This document shows, piece after piece, positions 18,492-58,572 of a DNA stretch of 64,000 nt. The stretch is from the NCBI RefSeq assembly GCF_022406875.1, contig NZ_CP023018.1, forward strand, positions 779,575 to 843,574. Direction: 5' to 3'. Both the position numbers and the translations under genes were made by a program. Under the pieces are notes generated by a model. The model saw only the letters and a list, made by a program, of their open reading frames with translations. It made no database searches and was not told the origin of the DNA. Position 1 is the first letter of the stretch. Every line of letters starts with the position of its first letter. The DNA is from Ectothiorhodosinus mongolicus. Its GTDB lineage: Bacteria; Pseudomonadota; Gammaproteobacteria; Ectothiorhodospirales; Ectothiorhodospiraceae.

Positions 18492-20828
18492 CTAGAAAAT
18501 TTGTTCGGTAACGCCGCCTGCAGCCTCTCCAGAACGCTCCTCCGCCACTTCCAGGCGGCTAAATTGCTCTGCAGTCAGCGACTCAAACAAGGTGCGCTCG
18601 GCATCACGGCCCGCTCGGGCGCCGGTGGCAGCATCAATACGCACAGTGATCATGCCGTCAGGTTCATTCAGGGGTATTTGTGGCGCGCCCTGCAAGGCCG
18701 GCCCCATGAAATCAATCCAGATGGGCAATGCAGCACCGGCGCCGGTCTCGCGGGCGCCCAAGGGCAGGTTCTGATCAAAGCCCACCCAAGCGGTAGTCAC
18801 CAAACTCCCGCTATATCCGGCAAACCAAGCATCGCGCATGTCATTGGTGGTGCCGGTTTTGCCGGCTAAGTCATTGCGACCCAATGCGCGGGCACGACGC
18901 CCCGTTCCCTCACGAATCACATCACGCAGCATACTGGTCATTTGATAGGCATTTTGCTCACTGATGGTCCGCTCTGGCGGCATAAACTCTTCCCAACGAT
19001 AGAGCAAATTACCCTGTGCATCCTCGATGCGCTGAATCAACCACGGCTCCAGTAAACGACCGCCGCTGGCAAATACCCCATAGGCGCGCGTCATCTCCAA
19101 AGGCGTTGTTGAGCCCGTACCCAAAGCCAAGGATAGGGCCCGCGGATGCTGCGAGAGTGCCAAACCAAAATGACGTAAATAGGCGTGTGAATCACGCACG
19201 CCCACCTGATCCAAGAGTCGGATCGAGACCAGATTACGCGAATAAACCATGGCCTCACGCAAACGGGTTGGCCCATAGAACTGACCACTGAAATTGCGCG
19301 GGCGCCACTCGGCATCTAAAGACAAATCGGCGACCACCACAGGCGCATCATTGACGGTGGTAGCGGGTGAATAGCCGTGTTCAAAGGCCGCTGCATAAAT
19401 AAAGGGCTTAAACGCCGATCCGGGTTGGCGCTCGGCACTGGTGGCGCGATTAAAATTGCTGCGATGGAAATCATAACCGCCCACCAGCGCCTTTAACGCG
19501 CCGCTTTGCACATCCATCGCCACCAACGCTCCCTCGACAACCGGGACCTGAGACAGTCGCCAGGTATTCTCGGCATCGTGCTGCACGCGGATGACATCCC
19601 CCACGCTTAGCACTTGAGAGAGGGATCGTGGCGTCGGACCCGGCCCACGCTGAGGATCGGGATTATGCGGCCGCGCCCAACGCACGGCCTGCAAATCTAG
19701 ACTGATGAATTCATCACGACCGAGATAAACCTCAGCGTGGTTTTCCCCCAAGGCCGTCACCAATCCGGCACGCAGACTACCTGCCACGCGCGGGAAAGAT
19801 GAGAGGGCTCGATCCCACTGCGCTGGCTCGGTTAATTCGCTCAAGTCCAACTGGGCCTCAGGACCGCGATAGCCATGGCGGCGATCATAAGCATCTAGAC
19901 CTGCGCGCACGGCATGGGTGGCTGCGGTTTGCATGTGGCTATCGACCGTGGTGTAGACCCGAAAACCCTCGGTATAAGCCCGCTCACCATAACGAGCCAA
20001 CATCTCAAGGCGCACCATCTCCGCCACATGACCGGCACTCACCTGAACTTCTGGGGCATGTAAGCGGGCGGTGACTGGAGTCTCTAACGCCTCGGCATAA
20101 TCGCCGTCGGTGATGAAGCCCAACTCATGCATGCGCCGCAGCACATAGTTACGACGGGCTATGGCGCGGCTTGGATTGGCGATGGGGTTGGCGGCTGAAG
20201 GTGCCTGCGGCAGGCCAGCAATCATGGCGATCTGCGGCAAAGTGAGCTCTTGGGGTACGACCCCATAATAGACGCGAGAGGCCGCACCTACCCCATAGGC
20301 GCGCTGCCCAAGAAAAATCTTATTCACATACAGTTCGAAAATTTCTTCTTTGCTGAACTCGCGCTCCATGCGCAAAGCCAGGAAGATCTCGGTGAGCTTA
20401 CGGGTATAGGTTTTATCGCGTTGCAAGAAGTAATTGCGAGCCACCTGCATGGTGATGGTGCTACCGCCTTGGGTCTTCTCACCGGTGGAGATCAGATTAA
20501 TGCCGGCTCGTAGCAAACCCAGCGGGTCCACCCCAGGATGAGTCTCGAAACGGTCATCCTCAGCCGCCAAAAAGGCCAGACGCATGAGCTCTGGGACTTC
20601 GTCAAAGGCCATGGGTTCGCGCCGCTGTTCCCCAAATTCAGCTATCAATGCGCCATCTTCGCTAAAGACACGCAGCGGCACCTGCAGTCGCACATCACGA
20701 ATCGTCTCGCTGTCGGGCAACTGGGGAGCAACGTACACATAACCGGCACCCAGCATCAATACGCCCATGACCAGCGCTAAAAAAACGCCGGTGAGTAACA
20801 ACTTAACGGGGGCCAACAAAAGTCTCAT
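18492..20828 (-). CDS. mrcA: Penicillin-binding protein 1A (bifunctional transglycosylase/transpeptidase)
   Basis: PBP1A polymerises and cross-links peptidoglycan. The 778-residue protein has an N-terminal TM anchor (about 7-28), a GT51 domain with 'AAEDDRFETHPGVD' (catalytic Glu) and 'QGGSTITMQVARN', an OB-like insert, and a transpeptidase domain with SAFK (active Ser), YSRN and KTGTTND. I start at the ATG at 20828 (MRLLLAPVKLL); an in-frame GTG at 20852 would add eight residues. It diverges from pilM, as ponA does in Pseudomonas. Confidence 0.95.
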   Translation of the reverse strand: MRLLLAPVKLLLTGVFLALVMGVLMLGAGYVYVAPQLPDSETIRDVRLQVPLRVFSEDGALIAEFGEQRREPMAFDEVPELMRLAFLAAEDDRFETHPGVDPLGLLRAGINLISTGEKTQGGSTITMQVARNYFLQRDKTYTRKLTEIFLALRMEREFSKEEIFELYVNKIFLGQRAYGVGAASRVYYGVVPQELTLPQIAMIAGLPQAPSAANPIANPSRAIARRNYVLRRMHELGFITDGDYAEALETPVTARLHAPEVQVSAGHVAEMVRLEMLARYGERAYTEGFRVYTTVDSHMQTAATHAVRAGLDAYDRRHGYRGPEAQLDLSELTEPAQWDRALSSFPRVAGSLRAGLVTALGENHAEVYLGRDEFISLDLQAVRWARPHNPDPQRGPGPTPRSLSQVLSVGDVIRVQHDAENTWRLSQVPVVEGALVAMDVQSGALKALVGGYDFHRSNFNRATSAERQPGSAFKPFIYAAAFEHGYSPATTVNDAPVVVADLSLDAEWRPRNFSGQFYGPTRLREAMVYSRNLVSIRLLDQVGVRDSHAYLRHFGLALSQHPRALSLALGTGSTTPLEMTRAYGVFASGGRLLEPWLIQRIEDAQGNLLYRWEEFMPPERTISEQNAYQMTSMLRDVIREGTGRRARALGRNDLAGKTGTTNDMRDAWFAGYSGSLVTTAWVGFDQNLPLGARETGAGAALPIWIDFMGPALQGAPQIPLNEPDGMITVRIDAATGARAGRDAERTLFESLTAEQFSRLEVAEERSGEAAGGVTEQIF

Positions 20829-21011
20829 GTGTCTATCAAGGTGGCCGCCCACGGCGGCAGTTTATCGGCAGCTTTCTGCCACTGGTCGGTCTGACATGCC
20901 TAAAGCATAGCGTTGGGGCTGAAAAGCCATTAAACAAGGCTTTGAAGCAGCACACCAAGATGTCCGGATATTAAGTCTTCGGGCACAGTACCGCAATCAC
21001 AGGATGTGGCT

Positions 21012-21911
21012 ATGCGCACTTTGTGGAAGAAAAAACGCACCCAAGTCGGCATAGATCTCGAACGAAATCACCTGCGCCTAGCACTGATCGGCAAATATCC
21101 CCAAGGCAATGAGCTGATCGATCAATGTGAATGGGAACTAGATGACAATAACAGCCTTTTGAGTGGCGGCAACGATGCCCTAATCGCTGCTTTTACAGAA
21201 GTCCGCCGTTACTTGGGGCGCTCGGTGCGCGACGGTGTGTTGGGCCTGCCTGCCCATGATTATGCATGCCACGATGCAGCGATTCCTCGGGGCCTACCCG
21301 AGGCACAACTCAAGCGACTCATTCGTGAAGAGGCAGCTGCCTATCTCCCCTATCCGTTGGATGAGGCAGAACTGCGCTATCACCCCAGTCATCAACCCAG
21401 CATGGGCAGCAGCCAACAGCGTTATCTTTTTTGGGCCGTGCGGCGGGATCGCTTGGCATTGATTCAGGCGGCAGCGCGACAAGCGGGCCTGCGCTTGAGC
21501 TGTATCGAAGCCCGGGCGCATGGACTTTATCGAGCCTGCCGACCCACTGGCCCGGCCTCGGCGACTCTCATTGCCTGCGTGGAACCCACACAGCTGCAGC
21601 TGTGGGAGATCGGGCAAGGTGAACTGCGCTATCAAGAAGTGTCATTAGACTTAGCCGACGCATCGCCACTGGCTTGGCTTGGGTCGATCAGCGAGGCCAT
21701 GAATCTGCTGCTGCGGAGTGCCAGAACTACGCCAATCTGTTTGACTGGGCGCATTGCCAGCCCAGAGCTGCAAGAACATTTGCAAAAGACATTGCCGTCT
21801 CCCTGCCGGCTTTGGCGGGGCCCTTCTCATGGATTAATGGCTGAAAAAAGCAAGCCTATTGATCCCGCCTATGCCGCCGCTATCGGCCTGGCTTTGCGGG
21901 AGCCCAGCTGA
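21012..21911 (+). CDS. pilM: Type IV pilus assembly protein PilM
   Basis: PilM is the actin-like cytoplasmic ATP-binding protein that binds the N-terminus of PilN and links the alignment subcomplex to the pilus motor. The 299-residue protein begins with the ASKHA phosphate-1 strand 'VGIDLERNHLRLALIG' and has 'LIREEAAAYLPYPLDEAEL', typical of PilM. It is shorter than the roughly 350-residue family standard and poorly conserved in its C-terminal half. ATG at 21012 is preceded by AGGA; a GTG at 21006 is a less likely start. It overlaps pilN by one base. Confidence 0.87.
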   Translation: MRTLWKKKRTQVGIDLERNHLRLALIGKYPQGNELIDQCEWELDDNNSLLSGGNDALIAAFTEVRRYLGRSVRDGVLGLPAHDYACHDAAIPRGLPEAQLKRLIREEAAAYLPYPLDEAELRYHPSHQPSMGSSQQRYLFWAVRRDRLALIQAAARQAGLRLSCIEARAHGLYRACRPTGPASATLIACVEPTQLQLWEIGQGELRYQEVSLDLADASPLAWLGSISEAMNLLLRSARTTPICLTGRIASPELQEHLQKTLPSPCRLWRGPSHGLMAEKSKPIDPAYAAAIGLALREPS

Positions 21912-22444
21912 TGCAAGAGATTAATTTTCTTAACAAGCACCGGTTGGCTTGGTCATGGCGACATCGCCTGTCTGTGGGTTTGGCGGTGTTGTGCTTACTC
22001 ATAGGTTTGGGCATTGGCGTTTATTGGCAACCGCATCTGGCTGAATCTTTAAAACAAGCGCAGGCTGAACAGCATTGGCTGCAGGCACGTCATATCGCTG
22101 TCACCCGCCAGCTTCGCTGGTTTGGTGGGCTGACTGAGGACGCAGTGCAGCTGCACGAGCTCGGCGCGCGCATCGCTAATCTCCAAGACCAGCGCTGGCG
22201 GCCTCTGCAGGCTTTGGATGAGCTGACGGCCGTGAGCCTGACGGGGGTGCAACTGCATAGCGCCCAGGTAGATGCCCAGCGGTTGTTGCTCCACGGCCAT
22301 GCCCAAAACCACCAGCAGCTCAGCGCCTATCTCGATGCGCTGCATCAGCTTTCCTGCTGTAACTCGGTGCAGGTCCAGACTCGGCCGGTAGCGCCCGCCA
22401 GCACCACGCAGCCTTATTTCACGCTAAGCCTGGGCCTACGATGA
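21911..22444 (+). CDS. pilN: Type IV pilus assembly protein PilN
   Basis: PilN is a bitopic inner membrane protein that binds PilM through its short cytoplasmic N-terminus and PilO through its periplasmic domain. The 177-residue protein starts MQEINFLNKHRLAWSWRHR, close to the PilN consensus (INLLPWR). It has one TM (about 23-42), a coiled-coil stretch, and a ferredoxin-like periplasmic domain ('LTAVSLTGVQLHSAQVD', 'SAYLDALHQLSCCNSVQVQ'). It overlaps pilM by one base and the next gene by four. Confidence 0.9.
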   Translation: MQEINFLNKHRLAWSWRHRLSVGLAVLCLLIGLGIGVYWQPHLAESLKQAQAEQHWLQARHIAVTRQLRWFGGLTEDAVQLHELGARIANLQDQRWRPLQALDELTAVSLTGVQLHSAQVDAQRLLLHGHAQNHQQLSAYLDALHQLSCCNSVQVQTRPVAPASTTQPYFTLSLGLR

Positions 22445-24045
22445 AGAACGCTCTTCGCCATCCTGCTTGGGCCTTGCCGCCTTTGGTTTTAGCGCTGTTA
22501 GCCGGCGGCTATGGGCTTTGGATCCTTCCGCTGCAACAAGAGCATTCCGATGTGCGTGCTCAAAAACAGTACATCGAGCAACATTGGGCGCAAGCGCAGC
22601 CGAGACTGCTGCAGGCCTCCCATCACTTAGACGCTATGTATGGCGCGGAAACCCAGCTCTACTCGCTAATGCAAAAAGCGCAGGCTCGCCGCACACACTC
22701 TGCTTTGCTGGCTGATATTGAGGCCTTAGCGATCAGCAAAGCGCTGCAGATTCAAGATCTAAGTTGGCCCAGCAGCGATGGGCAAAGCCCGCTGGGCCAA
22801 CAAAGCTTTTCCTTGGTGGTCAATGGCGAGTTACCAGCACTGCAGGATTTTTGGCATTGGCTGGCCAGCCTGCCTTGGTTTTTACAAGTGAATCAGGCTG
22901 AGTTATCGCTTGGGGAAGACGGCTCATCTCTGACGCTAAATTTACAAATGAGTCTTTTTGATGCGCTGCGCAGCCCAGGAATAGCCGCCACCGCGCCACC
23001 GAAGTCCGCCGCCGCGAATCCGTTTCAAGCCTTGGCATCGATTGATGAGGCTGCAGACGCGTCGAGCCCCGCTGAAATACCGGTTTTACGGCCCGAAATC
23101 CGCATTATTCAGGTCAATCACGGCCGCGCAGAGGATTTGGCGGCTCTGATTCGCGGAGATTCCAGCGCCTGGATTTCACCTCAAGGCAGCCTGCAGGTGG
23201 ATCCGCGCAACAACACGCTGTTTGTACGGGACGTGCCAGAGCAGCTGGCGCAACTCCAGGATCTGGTGGCTCGGCTGGATCAACCCTTGCGCCAAGTCCT
23301 GATTGAAACCCGCATCGTCATTGCCGCCGATGACTTCGCGCGCGATCTGGGGGTGCGTCTGGGGGTTAGCGCTCGCTCCGAACGCGGCCGATCGGCAGTG
23401 GCCACGAGTGGTTCAGCTGCGGGCGCCGAAGCTATAGCGCAAGGTGAGCCCGTGCCGTTGGCCGATCGCCTAAGCATTAATCTACCCGCGGGTGGCAGCG
23501 CTGCAGGCCGCATCGGGCTGTCGATTTTGCGTCCGAATATTCTCTTGGATTTGGAATTATCGGCACTGCAGGCCGAAGGTCGCGGTGAGATTATCGCCAC
23601 CCCCCGAATCATCACAGCCAATGGCAAAACCGCCGTGATCAAGCAAGGCGAGCGCCTGCCTTATGAGGAATCCGCGGAATCGGGCAACACCACTATTCGC
23701 TTTATCGACGCAGTTTTAGCCACGGAAGTCACACCACACATCACCGCCGATGGCAGCATCATCTTGGATATACGCGTCAACAAGGACAATCCCGGCACGC
23801 GCGAGATTCAAGGTACCCCATCGATAGAAACCCGCGAGGTGCAAACCCGGGTGTTTGTACGCAATGGCGAGACCGTCGTACTGGGCGGCATCTATGAAAT
23901 GACGGATATGGAACAGATCCGAAAAATACCGTTTTTCGGCGACTTGCCGGGTCTGGGGCGGTTATTTCGTTCCGAAGGGCGACTGCGTTCCAAGGCCGAG
24001 CTGCTGGTGTTTGTTACCCCCCACATTATCGATAGCGATTTTTAA
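22441..24045 (+). CDS. PilO-PilQ fusion: inner-membrane PilO domain joined to an outer-membrane secretin
   Basis: One uninterrupted 534-residue frame joins two proteins that are normally separate. Residues 1-178 are PilO-like: TM at about 11-29, coiled coil, then the ferredoxin-like domain ('FSLVVNGELPALQDFWHWLASLPWFLQV'). A Pro/Ala-rich linker (179-216) contains 'NPFQA', possibly a trace of PilP. Residues 217-282 are a secretin N1 (NolW) domain, and 283-534 a full secretin core with 'PFFGDLPGLGRLF' and terminal 'ELLVFVTPHI'. Separate pilP, the N0 domain and the AMIN domains of PilQ are absent. A secretin tethered by an inner membrane helix is topologically odd; proteolytic separation or use of the helix as a signal peptide are possible. 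Order after pilMN fits both parts. Confidence 0.87.
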   Translation: MKNALRHPAWALPPLVLALLAGGYGLWILPLQQEHSDVRAQKQYIEQHWAQAQPRLLQASHHLDAMYGAETQLYSLMQKAQARRTHSALLADIEALAISKALQIQDLSWPSSDGQSPLGQQSFSLVVNGELPALQDFWHWLASLPWFLQVNQAELSLGEDGSSLTLNLQMSLFDALRSPGIAATAPPKSAAANPFQALASIDEAADASSPAEIPVLRPEIRIIQVNHGRAEDLAALIRGDSSAWISPQGSLQVDPRNNTLFVRDVPEQLAQLQDLVARLDQPLRQVLIETRIVIAADDFARDLGVRLGVSARSERGRSAVATSGSAAGAEAIAQGEPVPLADRLSINLPAGGSAAGRIGLSILRPNILLDLELSALQAEGRGEIIATPRIITANGKTAVIKQGERLPYEESAESGNTTIRFIDAVLATEVTPHITADGSIILDIRVNKDNPGTREIQGTPSIETREVQTRVFVRNGETVVLGGIYEMTDMEQIRKIPFFGDLPGLGRLFRSEGRLRSKAELLVFVTPHIIDSDF

Positions 24046-24070: not shown

Positions 24071-24484
24071 ATGCAACAAAAAGGATTTTCTCTCATGGAA
24101 CTGATGCTGGTGGTGGCCATCATCGGCGTCTTGGCGGCACTGGGCATTCCTCAGTACCAAAACTACATGGCGCGCGCCCAAGTCAGCGAAGCACTCACCC
24201 TAACCGCCGCTTTGCGCATGGACTTAGTGCAACAGCAAATCATGGGCGGCTCTGTGCCCAGCGGCGATCAAGAACTCAGTGGCCGCCATGTGGCCTCGGT
24301 CACCACCAATGAGGCCGGCAATACGGTCAATGTGGTGTTCAAAGGCACAGCCAATGGGCAAATCGCCAATGAAACTCTGGTGTTGGTTTTGACTGAAGCA
24401 AGCAGCGGGGGCGGCTGGACTTGCTCATGGGTAGGTAATGTTGCAGAGAATCTGTTGCCCAGCAGCTGTCTCACTGATGGCTAA
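24071..24484 (+). CDS. pilA: Type IV pilin (major pilin, PilA-like)
   Basis: A 137-residue prepilin. The leader MQQKG is followed by FSLMELMLVVAIIGVLAALG, a class III signal with Gly(-1), Phe(+1) and Glu(+5). The hydrophobic helix then leads into 'QYQNYMARAQVSEALTL', typical of type IVa major pilins. Two cysteines near the C-terminus (in 'TCSWVG' and 'SSCLTDG') would close the D-region loop. The start is the ATG at 24071; earlier in-frame codons belong to the preceding gene. It follows the secretin gene by 25 bases and meets the convergent minor pilin gene with a 4-base overlap. Confidence 0.9.
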   Translation: MQQKGFSLMELMLVVAIIGVLAALGIPQYQNYMARAQVSEALTLTAALRMDLVQQQIMGGSVPSGDQELSGRHVASVTTNEAGNTVNVVFKGTANGQIANETLVLVLTEASSGGGWTCSWVGNVAENLLPSSCLTDG

Positions 24485-24960
24485 TGAGCCAGATAGGCCG
24501 ACCACTGCAGCTTGGGGTCAGACCCCACCCATGTGGGGTCTGACCCCATCTCTGACCATCCGAAGATCAGGATGATCTGGCGTGAGACCAGAGCGTTGGG
24601 GGATTCGCCTTTTAGGGTGATATGCCACTGATCTGAGTTTAAGGCCACAGTCACGATCGACCATTGGCCATCGGCTAGCGGCTCTTGCTGGGTTTGATGC
24701 AAAAGATCCCGCAACGCATCGAGCGCTCCCTCGTGGGGGAGCGCTCGATCCTCTAGGGCATCGATTAGACGCGCAGCGCCGGATTGCACCGCCAATTCAG
24801 CCCGCAAAGCCTCTTGTTGATAGTGGGCAATGCGGTACTGATCTGAACCTAAATCCATGGCCGCCATGGCCAAAAAACTGGCCGTGGACAACAGCAAAGC
24901 CATCAGCAACAAGACAGCCCCGCGTTGTCTGCCATCCGTTATGGCGGGAATCCTGCTCAT
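24481..24960 (-). CDS. PilX-like minor pilin assembly protein
   Basis: The 159-residue protein has a short basic N-terminus ('RQRGAVLLLMALLLSTASFLAMAAMD') with a single hydrophobic helix and no Glu(+5), as in PilX proteins of the PilVWX set. The body is a small globular domain rich in Ala and Gln. The last ~22 residues ('MGSDPTWVGSDPKLQW' and what follows) are encoded across a REP-like palindrome pair, so the natural C-terminus may have been changed by insertion of that repeat. It is the last of three minor pilin genes read leftwards; its start overlaps the PilW-like gene by four bases. Confidence 0.7.
   Translation of the reverse strand: MSRIPAITDGRQRGAVLLLMALLLSTASFLAMAAMDLGSDQYRIAHYQQEALRAELAVQSGAARLIDALEDRALPHEGALDALRDLLHQTQQEPLADGQWSIVTVALNSDQWHITLKGESPNALVSRQIILIFGWSEMGSDPTWVGSDPKLQWSAYLAH
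24513..24548. repeat. REP-like pair of palindromes (GGGGTCAGACCCC family)
   Basis: Two 15-base palindromes, TGGGGTCAGACCCCA (24513-24527) and TGGGGTCTGACCCCA (24534-24548), flank a six-base spacer. The second is the reverse complement of the first, so the whole can form one long hairpin. Sequences of this type occur as dispersed REP elements in many proteobacteria, often linked to RAYT transposases. No transposase is present here. The repeat lies inside the coding sequence of the PilX-like gene. Confidence 0.75.
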
Positions 24961-25454
24961 GGCATGGGCCGCTGCGGCCGTCGCGGCGTGGCCGTCACCT
25001 CAATCGGGCTGGGATAAGACAGTGGTAGGCGGATGCGAACCCCATGCTCAAGGCCACCGGTTACCGCCTCTGCTTGCAGTCGCGAACGCGGTGCAAATCC
25101 CAGCAATAACTCTTGCGCCAGACGACTGCCGCGACAACGCAGCCCCTCGCCCTGCATAAAATAGGTGATGGGGCGTGGCTCTGTTGCTGCCGGCTGTGCG
25201 CACCACTCAGTAAAACGCTGGCGACTGATGATGAGGGCATTATTCCCTGTCTCCAAGGCGGAAGCCGAGCGCACCTCACGCAGCAACACATCAACGCTAA
25301 AGGCCAGTACCTCTTGCGCCTCAGCCAAATCATGCAACTCATTTTGTGCCGCGCGTAGAGCCGTGAATAACTGCAGTGCTCCGGCAAGCAAAAAAGCCGC
25401 CAGCAACAAACTGATCAACATCTCCACCAGCGAAAAGCCAGCTTGATCACGCAT
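24957..25454 (-). CDS. PilW-like minor pilin
   Basis: The 165-residue protein starts MRDQAGFSLVEMLISLLLAAFLL, a class III signal peptide cleaved before Phe with Glu at +5, followed by one hydrophobic helix. The body ('EAQEVLAFSVDVLLREVRSAS...') resembles PilW, a priming minor pilin of type IVa pili. It is shorter than typical PilW proteins (about 270 residues), so parts of the C-terminal domain are reduced. I use the ATG at 25454, which overlaps the stop of the upstream gene by one base; a longer frame would run through that gene. Confidence 0.78.
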   Translation of the reverse strand: MRDQAGFSLVEMLISLLLAAFLLAGALQLFTALRAAQNELHDLAEAQEVLAFSVDVLLREVRSASALETGNNALIISRQRFTEWCAQPAATEPRPITYFMQGEGLRCRGSRLAQELLLGFAPRSRLQAEAVTGGLEHGVRIRLPLSYPSPIEVTATPRRPQRPMP

Positions 25455-25837
25455 CACTGAGCCAGACGGGGCAGCTGTACCCAGTAGTCTTGTGAGACTG
25501 AGGAACTGCGCATTTGAATATGACATAAACGCTGCGGCGTGCAGTGGATCTCGTGGTCGCCTTCCATAAAAAAATCTGACCAATGCTGCTGCCACTCATG
25601 GCTGAGAGATTCGGGCTGCCACGGGCCGTGTAAGCTCGCCATCCACAAGCGCTCAGCAGCGTCAGCGGCCATCACTTGGGCCAGTGTCTGTTGGTAGGCT
25701 TTGTGCGCCGCTCCGTTGGCTACGGCATGCCACTGCAACAAACCTAGCGCAGCGACGCTAAGCAACACCAGACTCAGCAACACTTCCACCAAAGTGAATC
25801 CAGCGGCCAAATGGCGGCACTTATCCTGCATGTGCAT
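25454..25837 (-). CDS. PilV-like minor pilin
   Basis: The 127-residue protein starts MHMQDKCRHLAAGFTLVEVLLSLVLLS: a leader ending in Gly, then FTLVEVLLS with Glu(+5), and a membrane helix. 'LSVAALGLLQWH' after the helix is typical of PilV/GspI-type minor pilins. Short soluble domain with two cysteines in 'IHCTPQRLCHI'. First of three minor pilin genes (V, W, X order) transcribed leftwards, divergent from aroK. The name rests on gene order and N-terminal type rather than on full-length similarity. Confidence 0.75.
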   Translation of the reverse strand: MHMQDKCRHLAAGFTLVEVLLSLVLLSVAALGLLQWHAVANGAAHKAYQQTLAQVMAADAAERLWMASLHGPWQPESLSHEWQQHWSDFFMEGDHEIHCTPQRLCHIQMRSSSVSQDYWVQLPRLAQ

Positions 25838-57903: not shown

Positions 57904-58572
57904 TTAAGCTGTCAACAACAGCTGTATGACACCAGCCAAAGCCAGAAACACGCCAAAGGGCAAAGGCTGCTCCTGACCCATGCGTCCCACCCAGCGCAGA
58001 GCCAAACCCACTACCACGCCGCTCAAAGCGGCGATTAGCAACAGTTGGGGAAGAACCTGCCAGCCCAGCCAAGCGCCCAGCATGGCGAGCATTTTGAAGT
58101 CTCCATGCCCCATGCCTGCCTTGCCAGTGAGACGCAAAAAAATGTGATAGACCGCCCAGAGGCTGAGATATCCGGCGACCGTTCCTACGACCGCGCTGGC
58201 AAGATCGGTGAATACTCCGAAGAGATTCACAACCAAACCCAACCAAAGCAGCGGCAAGGTGATCAGGTCAGGCAGCAAATAATAGCGGTAATCGATCAGC
58301 GCCAGCGTGACCAGCGTGGTCAACAAAATAACCGCAGCAAAAAAAGTAGGCGTAGCGCCCCACCAAGACAATAGAGCTAGGGTTAGTGCGATCGCCAAGC
58401 CTTCGGGCCATAGCTTGGGTAGGCGAATGGATTCCACCGCCTGCTCAGAACCGACCGCCTCAGGCTCGCCCATCAACGTTGTTAGACGAATCAGCGCCAA
58501 ACGCAAACCCACACCGCTGAGCAAGCCCATCGATAAGCCAATCACCCAGAACTGCCATGAGGTCGGGCTCAC
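57904..58572 (-). CDS. A24 prepilin peptidase, PilD-like but without the methyltransferase insert
   Basis: The 222-residue inner membrane protein has the two catalytic aspartates of A24 aspartic peptidases: 'LIDYRYYLLPD' and 'GMGHGDFKMLAMLGAWLG'. The N-terminal helix ('WQFWVIGLSMGLLSGVGLRLALIRL') corresponds to PilD TM1. The cytoplasmic N-methyltransferase segment with four zinc-binding cysteines is missing; the protein has no cysteine at all. It should cleave prepilins but may not methylate them. GTG at 58572 follows AAAGGA; a TTG at 58596 is an alternative start. It likely serves the pilins at 24-26 kb. Confidence 0.83.
   Translation of the reverse strand: MSPTSWQFWVIGLSMGLLSGVGLRLALIRLTTLMGEPEAVGSEQAVESIRLPKLWPEGLAIALTLALLSWWGATPTFFAAVILLTTLVTLALIDYRYYLLPDLITLPLLWLGLVVNLFGVFTDLASAVVGTVAGYLSLWAVYHIFLRLTGKAGMGHGDFKMLAMLGAWLGWQVLPQLLLIAALSGVVVGLALRWVGRMGQEQPLPFGVFLALAGVIQLLLTA

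Follow-up and report, generated by a model that had tools for sequence, protein, structure and literature searches.

A single reading frame joins PilO to the PilQ secretin core in a pil locus of Ectothiorhodosinus mongolicus

Enterobacterial HofMNOPQ and Pasteurellaceae ComA-E have short secretins, HofQ and ComE, which keep N0 and a signal peptide. The PilP counterpart there is HofP or ComD, and Haemophilus is not known to have PilT. In type IVa pilus machines, the PilMNOP complex meets the secretin where PilP HR contacts PilQ N0 (PMC5285504), and AMIN-less secretins occur in other T4aP systems (PMC7545093). In the type II secretion system, GspA-GspB fusions are found, and OutB is an inner-membrane protein that holds the secretin (PMC9239104).

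The locus described here shares with the type IVa PilMNOPQ systems of Pseudomonas aeruginosa and Vibrio cholerae the gene order between mrcA and aroKB, the PilO fold, an N1-secretin core, PilF, PilB, PilC and pilins. It differs from them in that PilO and PilQ form one chain, that PilP, AMIN, N0 and PilT/PilU are absent, and that PilB is without its N-terminal region. An AMIN-less secretin, a short PilB-like ATPase, ComEC and the absence of PilT are shared with HofMNOPQ and ComA-E, but HofQ and ComE are separate proteins. As with GspA-GspB and OutB, neighbours in an envelope complex are naturally fused and a protein links the inner membrane to the secretin, although the secretin itself stays outside those fusions.

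The locus lies in a window of 64,000 nucleotides, which is the whole stretch of DNA analysed, and the genome, 99.95% complete, consists of one contig of 1,995,095 bases. The features, in window coordinates, are as follows.

21006-21911, + strand: pilM, diverged, 301 aa against 353 in relatives (PF11104, 39 bits; hhalign E 9.6e-9)
21911-22444, + strand: pilN, diverged, 177 aa (PF05137, 18 bits, below cut-off; hhalign E 1e-5)
22441-24045, + strand: pilO-pilQ fused ORF, 534 aa
22441-22962, + strand: PilO-like part, residues 1-174 (PF04350, hhalign, fold match to 2rjz, 5uvr and 3jc8)
22963-23094, + strand: linker, residues about 175-218 (model pLDDT, alignment, in-frame codon usage)
23101-23295, + strand: Secretin_N (N1) domain, residues 221-285 (PF03958, 57 bits)
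23563-24033, + strand: Secretin domain, residues 375-531 (PF00263, 163 bits; PilQ structures 6w6m and 6ve2)
24071-24484, + strand: major-pilin-like gene with a prepilin N terminus (PF00114, 58 bits; PF07963)
24481-24960, - strand: PilX-like ORF, no family match (position and N-terminal hydrophobic segment)
24957-25595, - strand: minor pilin in the PilW position, prepilin motif (PF07963, 31.7 bits)
25454-25837, - strand: minor pilin, PilV-like (TIGR02523, 36.7 bits, below cut-off)

The fused ORF occupies the pilO position of the pilMNO(P)Q locus, and its start codon and the stop of pilN share a 4-bp ATGA, the same type of overlap as at the pilO start of a relative (L043). Its 534 codons run without an internal stop, and Pfam places PilO, Secretin_N and Secretin in this order, the PilO match covering residues 40-170 at 22.5 bits, barely above the cut-off of 22. 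With a codon-usage model trained on six neighbouring genes, the annotated frame scores +0.19 in the PilO part, +0.14 across the junction and +0.26 in the secretin part, and the other frames of the same three stretches score lower. The sequence-only reading had claimed a single ORF joining PilO to the PilQ secretin, and had named a frameshift at the junction as what would undo it; no frameshift is present in the sequence, and Pfam matches both halves. The fused ORF is confirmed as real, with a PilO-like anchor followed by a linker and then by the N1 and secretin domains of PilQ.

Because the Pfam score of the PilO half is marginal, its identity was checked in three further ways. A profile of the relatives' PilO aligns with residues 17-173 by hhalign (E 1.9e-7, probability 93.7%). 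A model built with PilO relatives shows one long N-terminal helix, then alpha-beta-beta-alpha-beta-beta, and its top PDB matches by Foldseek are 3jc8 (PilO in a type IVa machine model) and 2rjz and 5uvr (P. aeruginosa PilO); its pLDDT averages only 64, though most of the ferredoxin core reaches about 78-88. A full-length model built without PilO rows again matches 2rjz, at 2.9 Å over 86 columns. PilO and PilQ rows were aligned separately. The layout is a short N terminus, a TM helix at about residues 11-29, a coiled coil and a ferredoxin-like alpha-beta-beta-alpha-beta-beta fold, so that TM helix, coiled coil and fold of PilO are all present. Residues 11-29 are the only N-terminal hydrophobic stretch in the fused protein, and they align with the PilO anchor of relatives.

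The C-terminal half carries a secretin domain of PilQ type, and in the full-length model it matches PilQ 6w6m and 6ve2. TIGR02515 (PilQ, NCBIfam) matches residues 219-530 at 328 bits against a cut-off of 284, covering model positions 98-427 only; HofQ (NCBIfam, 231.7 bits against 554) and GspD (TIGR02517, 180 bits against 351) stay below their cut-offs. The N1 domain goes under the name 'N3' in the paper on V. cholerae PilQ. N0 is absent, as there is no Pfam STN match and the TIGR02515 match begins at position 98, and so is AMIN, which is variable in the PilQ family. Family relatives share 50-62% identity with the secretin core, and in the tree the secretin half nests with family PilQ (support 98/96); its branch measures 0.85, whereas none in the nearest group exceeds 0.3.

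The linker of about 45 residues is mostly low-confidence or disordered in the model. Its end, AEIPVLRPE, aligns with AELAPLRAE, the connector after N0 in the PilQ of relatives, which places the cut in PilQ between N0 and N1. A PilP remnant inside the linker was looked for by hhalign and none was found.

A genome-wide profile search found no PilP, with the limit that a highly diverged PilP could escape it; the only match, of 12.9 bits, lies antisense within trkA and was rejected. Cyanobacterial PilP was long thought absent and later located elsewhere (PMC12288463). With the AMIN and N0 part of a same-genus PilQ as query, no match was obtained anywhere in the genome, while in seven other loci of the family the same query gives matches with E from 1e-94 to 1e-162. 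The sequence-only reading, which had held PilP, N0 and AMIN all to be missing, thus bears up, and an intact pilOPQ elsewhere, which it had feared would make the fused ORF a relic, is not there, the only other secretin being RcpA/CpaC in a Tad locus.

That reading had mentioned neither the strong divergence of PilM, PilN and PilO nor the loss of PilT/PilU and of the N-terminal part of PilB. No PilT or PilU was found in the genome, where the T2SSE domain occurs only in PilB and the Tad CpaF; in each of the nine same-genus genomes, by contrast, several genes score above the PilT-family cut-off. PilB has 425 aa, its TIGR02538 match starts only at position 157, the N-terminal region being gone, and at 603 bits it stays under the equivalog cut-off of 676. 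Among the parts of a type IVa machine, then, a PilP-containing pilMNOPQ set (a diverged PilP could be missed) and the PilT/PilU retraction ATPases are absent, and PilB, PilC, prepilin peptidase, PilF and type IVa pilins are present.

PilC, the PilB core and ComEC are retained. The PilF-like pilotin has 186 aa and a lipobox, stands in the order rlmN-pilF-rodZ, and scores 130 bits against a cut-off of 154. A reading of pilF as broken by two stops was rejected, since the stops lie at or past the end of the intact 186-aa gene. A single prepilin peptidase was found, at about 58003-58329 (- strand) of the window, and it may serve both the type IVa and the Tad system. The Tad locus (L048) of this genome has CpaB, RcpA, TadE/F-like genes, CpaE, CpaF, TadB and TadC. 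Incidentally, paired REP-like palindromes (TGGGGTCnGACCCCA) occur at window positions 24513-24548 and also at 20251-20265, with several pairs in L048; many of these palindromes are inside ORFs, one pair being in the 3' end of the ORF in the PilX position. The window holds 7 matches against 0.12 expected.

In the family, 11 complete pil loci were examined, and each one encodes pilM, pilN and pilO as separate genes, contains pilP sequence and has a long pilQ; two same-genus contigs (L035 and L042) break within pilQ and stand outside these 11. One relative (L041) seemed to be missing pilP, which was rejected, as pilP sequence is present with one assembly frameshift. This frameshift (L041:5668-6239, genome G007) reflects either an error in sequencing or a gene that broke recently. 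When 58 genomes were searched with the fused protein, PilQ-type matches were obtained in 57, and the N-terminal half matched only its own genome. PilM, PilN and PilO of relatives are mostly 45-95% identical to one another, and those of this genome about 20%. Because the secretin half groups with the family while PilM, PilN and PilO have diverged, we conclude that the secretin core descended vertically and that all parts on its inner-membrane side changed fast.

Other fusions of PilO to a secretin, the search for which the sequence-only reading had proposed, were sought more widely. PF04350 was run over 370 gammaproteobacterial genomes and matched 293; frame lengths were examined for about 150 of the best PilO matches and 79 weaker ones, the fused protein served as query against 33 genomes in which PilO was weak or absent, and 57 relatives were added. 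No further PilO-secretin ORF was found among about 290 other gammaproteobacterial genomes, a count that is a sample, as about 60 genomes with mid-range PilO were left out and a fusion whose PilO part is unrecognisable would go unseen. A scan of genome contigs gave only a Planctomycetota secretin. In the open literature searched, no natural PilO-PilQ or PilO-PilP fusion was found. Long frames in genomes G037 and G179 were candidates for the same fusion and were rejected, being second-copy PilN-PilO chains behind a lipoprotein-like N terminus (L092:1302-3143, L094:990-3044, L095:1606-3039), of which the L092 chain additionally includes PilP; none of them contains a secretin, and they come from a fourth family. 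A 310-aa secretin without recognisable N0 lies 3' of two short ORFs at L084:759-1691 (G059), in another reduced pilus locus.

PilO-PilP single ORFs, which the sequence-only reading had not mentioned either, were found in three small genomes, each from a different gammaproteobacterial family.

L083:4885-5790: PilO-PilP fusion in G374 (genome 2.06 Mb)
L096:2753-3595, - strand: PilO-PilP fusion in G360
L097:3404-4204: PilO-PilP fusion in G172

As in the present locus, neighbouring parts of the alignment complex share one ORF in a small genome, and these three cases, together with the PilN-PilO(-PilP) chains and the GspA-GspB fusions, argue that the joining of neighbouring parts recurs. In G374, PilQ (L083:5794-6915, 373 aa) is also without AMIN and recognisable N0. 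Unlike the present fusion, all three keep the PilP domain, join on the inner-membrane side and leave the secretin separate.

Our preferred reading of the locus, to which we give a probability of roughly 0.6, is a streamlined type IVa pilus whose PilP-N0 contact has given way to a covalent tether between PilO and PilQ. On this reading pilP was lost in frame together with the stretch of pilQ that encodes AMIN and N0, and PilO and the N1-secretin core thereby became one polypeptide. The PilO helix would anchor the chain in the inner membrane, its coiled coil and ferredoxin domain would pair with PilN, and the flexible linker would cross the periplasm; at 3.4 Å per residue its 45 or so residues could stretch to roughly 150 Å, enough to offset PilP HR and N0. 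The C-terminal half would form the outer-membrane ring aided by the retained pilotin, and since PilF is kept, the ring is suggested still to reach the outer membrane. Because both partners of the PilP HR-N0 contact are missing, a covalent bond as their substitute is the simplest reading, and it would force a 1:1 ratio of PilO to PilQ.

Absence of cleavage, insertion into both membranes and function of the chain are what we infer, and the sequence-only reading, which had an inner membrane anchor continuous with an outer membrane channel, is thus supported in part. A streamlined pilus with this chain is probably functional. Left uncleaved, the chain would work as a secretin reaching from membrane to membrane, with its anchor in the inner membrane, a ring of PilO in the periplasm and a channel in the outer membrane, at 1:1 PilO:PilQ; this version is put at slightly less than even odds. 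That ComEC is kept although PilT/PilU are lost points to DNA uptake, not to twitching. This possible role is the weakest step, because in type IVa systems transformation is usually poor in PilT mutants, whereas com systems have no PilT (PMC6370729).

The tether is favoured by the fusion at a domain boundary, the joint loss of PilP and N0, and the retention of PilF, PilB core, PilC, pilins, peptidase and ComEC. It is weakened by coming from one genome and one assembly. Collapse of about 2 kb (pilP and the 5' part of pilQ) during assembly could have joined two genes in frame, but this is very improbable: PilP and AMIN/N0 sequence occurs nowhere else in the contig, the join keeps the frame and falls on a domain boundary, and a local collapse would not explain why PilM, PilN and the ATPase set are also altered. 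If instead genome reduction took PilT/PilU, PilP and the PilQ N terminus, the fused ORF could be the unbroken remnant of a decaying system. The genome, at 2.0 Mb against 2.6-3.8 Mb in the genus, is small, PilT/PilU are lost, and the long secretin branch and the approximately 20% identity of PilM, PilN and PilO are as compatible with relaxed constraint or decay as with remodelling; Coxiella has no pilP, and decay is the accepted view of its pil genes (PMC3882888). Yet none of the pil ORFs examined is interrupted and their codon usage is native, the deletion follows domain limits precisely, and the pilotin, the PilB core, PilC, the pilins and the peptidase remain, which makes decay rather unlikely.

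Post-translational cutting of the product, by signal peptidase or a periplasmic protease, is somewhat less improbable than decay, though still unlikely, and would leave no continuous membrane-to-membrane chain. The linker is long and disordered, secretins normally bear cleaved signal peptides whereas the fused secretin half has none of its own, and the sequence offers a candidate signal-peptidase-like site, A-G-G, at residues 21-23. On the other hand, the hydrophobic stretch there aligns with the relatives' PilO anchor, and with PilP and N0 gone, cutting would leave no known link between the halves.

If the covalent tether holds and the PilP-N0 contact has been replaced by a peptide bond, the essential job of PilP would be tethering. 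It would also raise how a secretin reaches the outer membrane with its N terminus held in the inner membrane, and the fused protein would be a ready-made single chain for structural studies.
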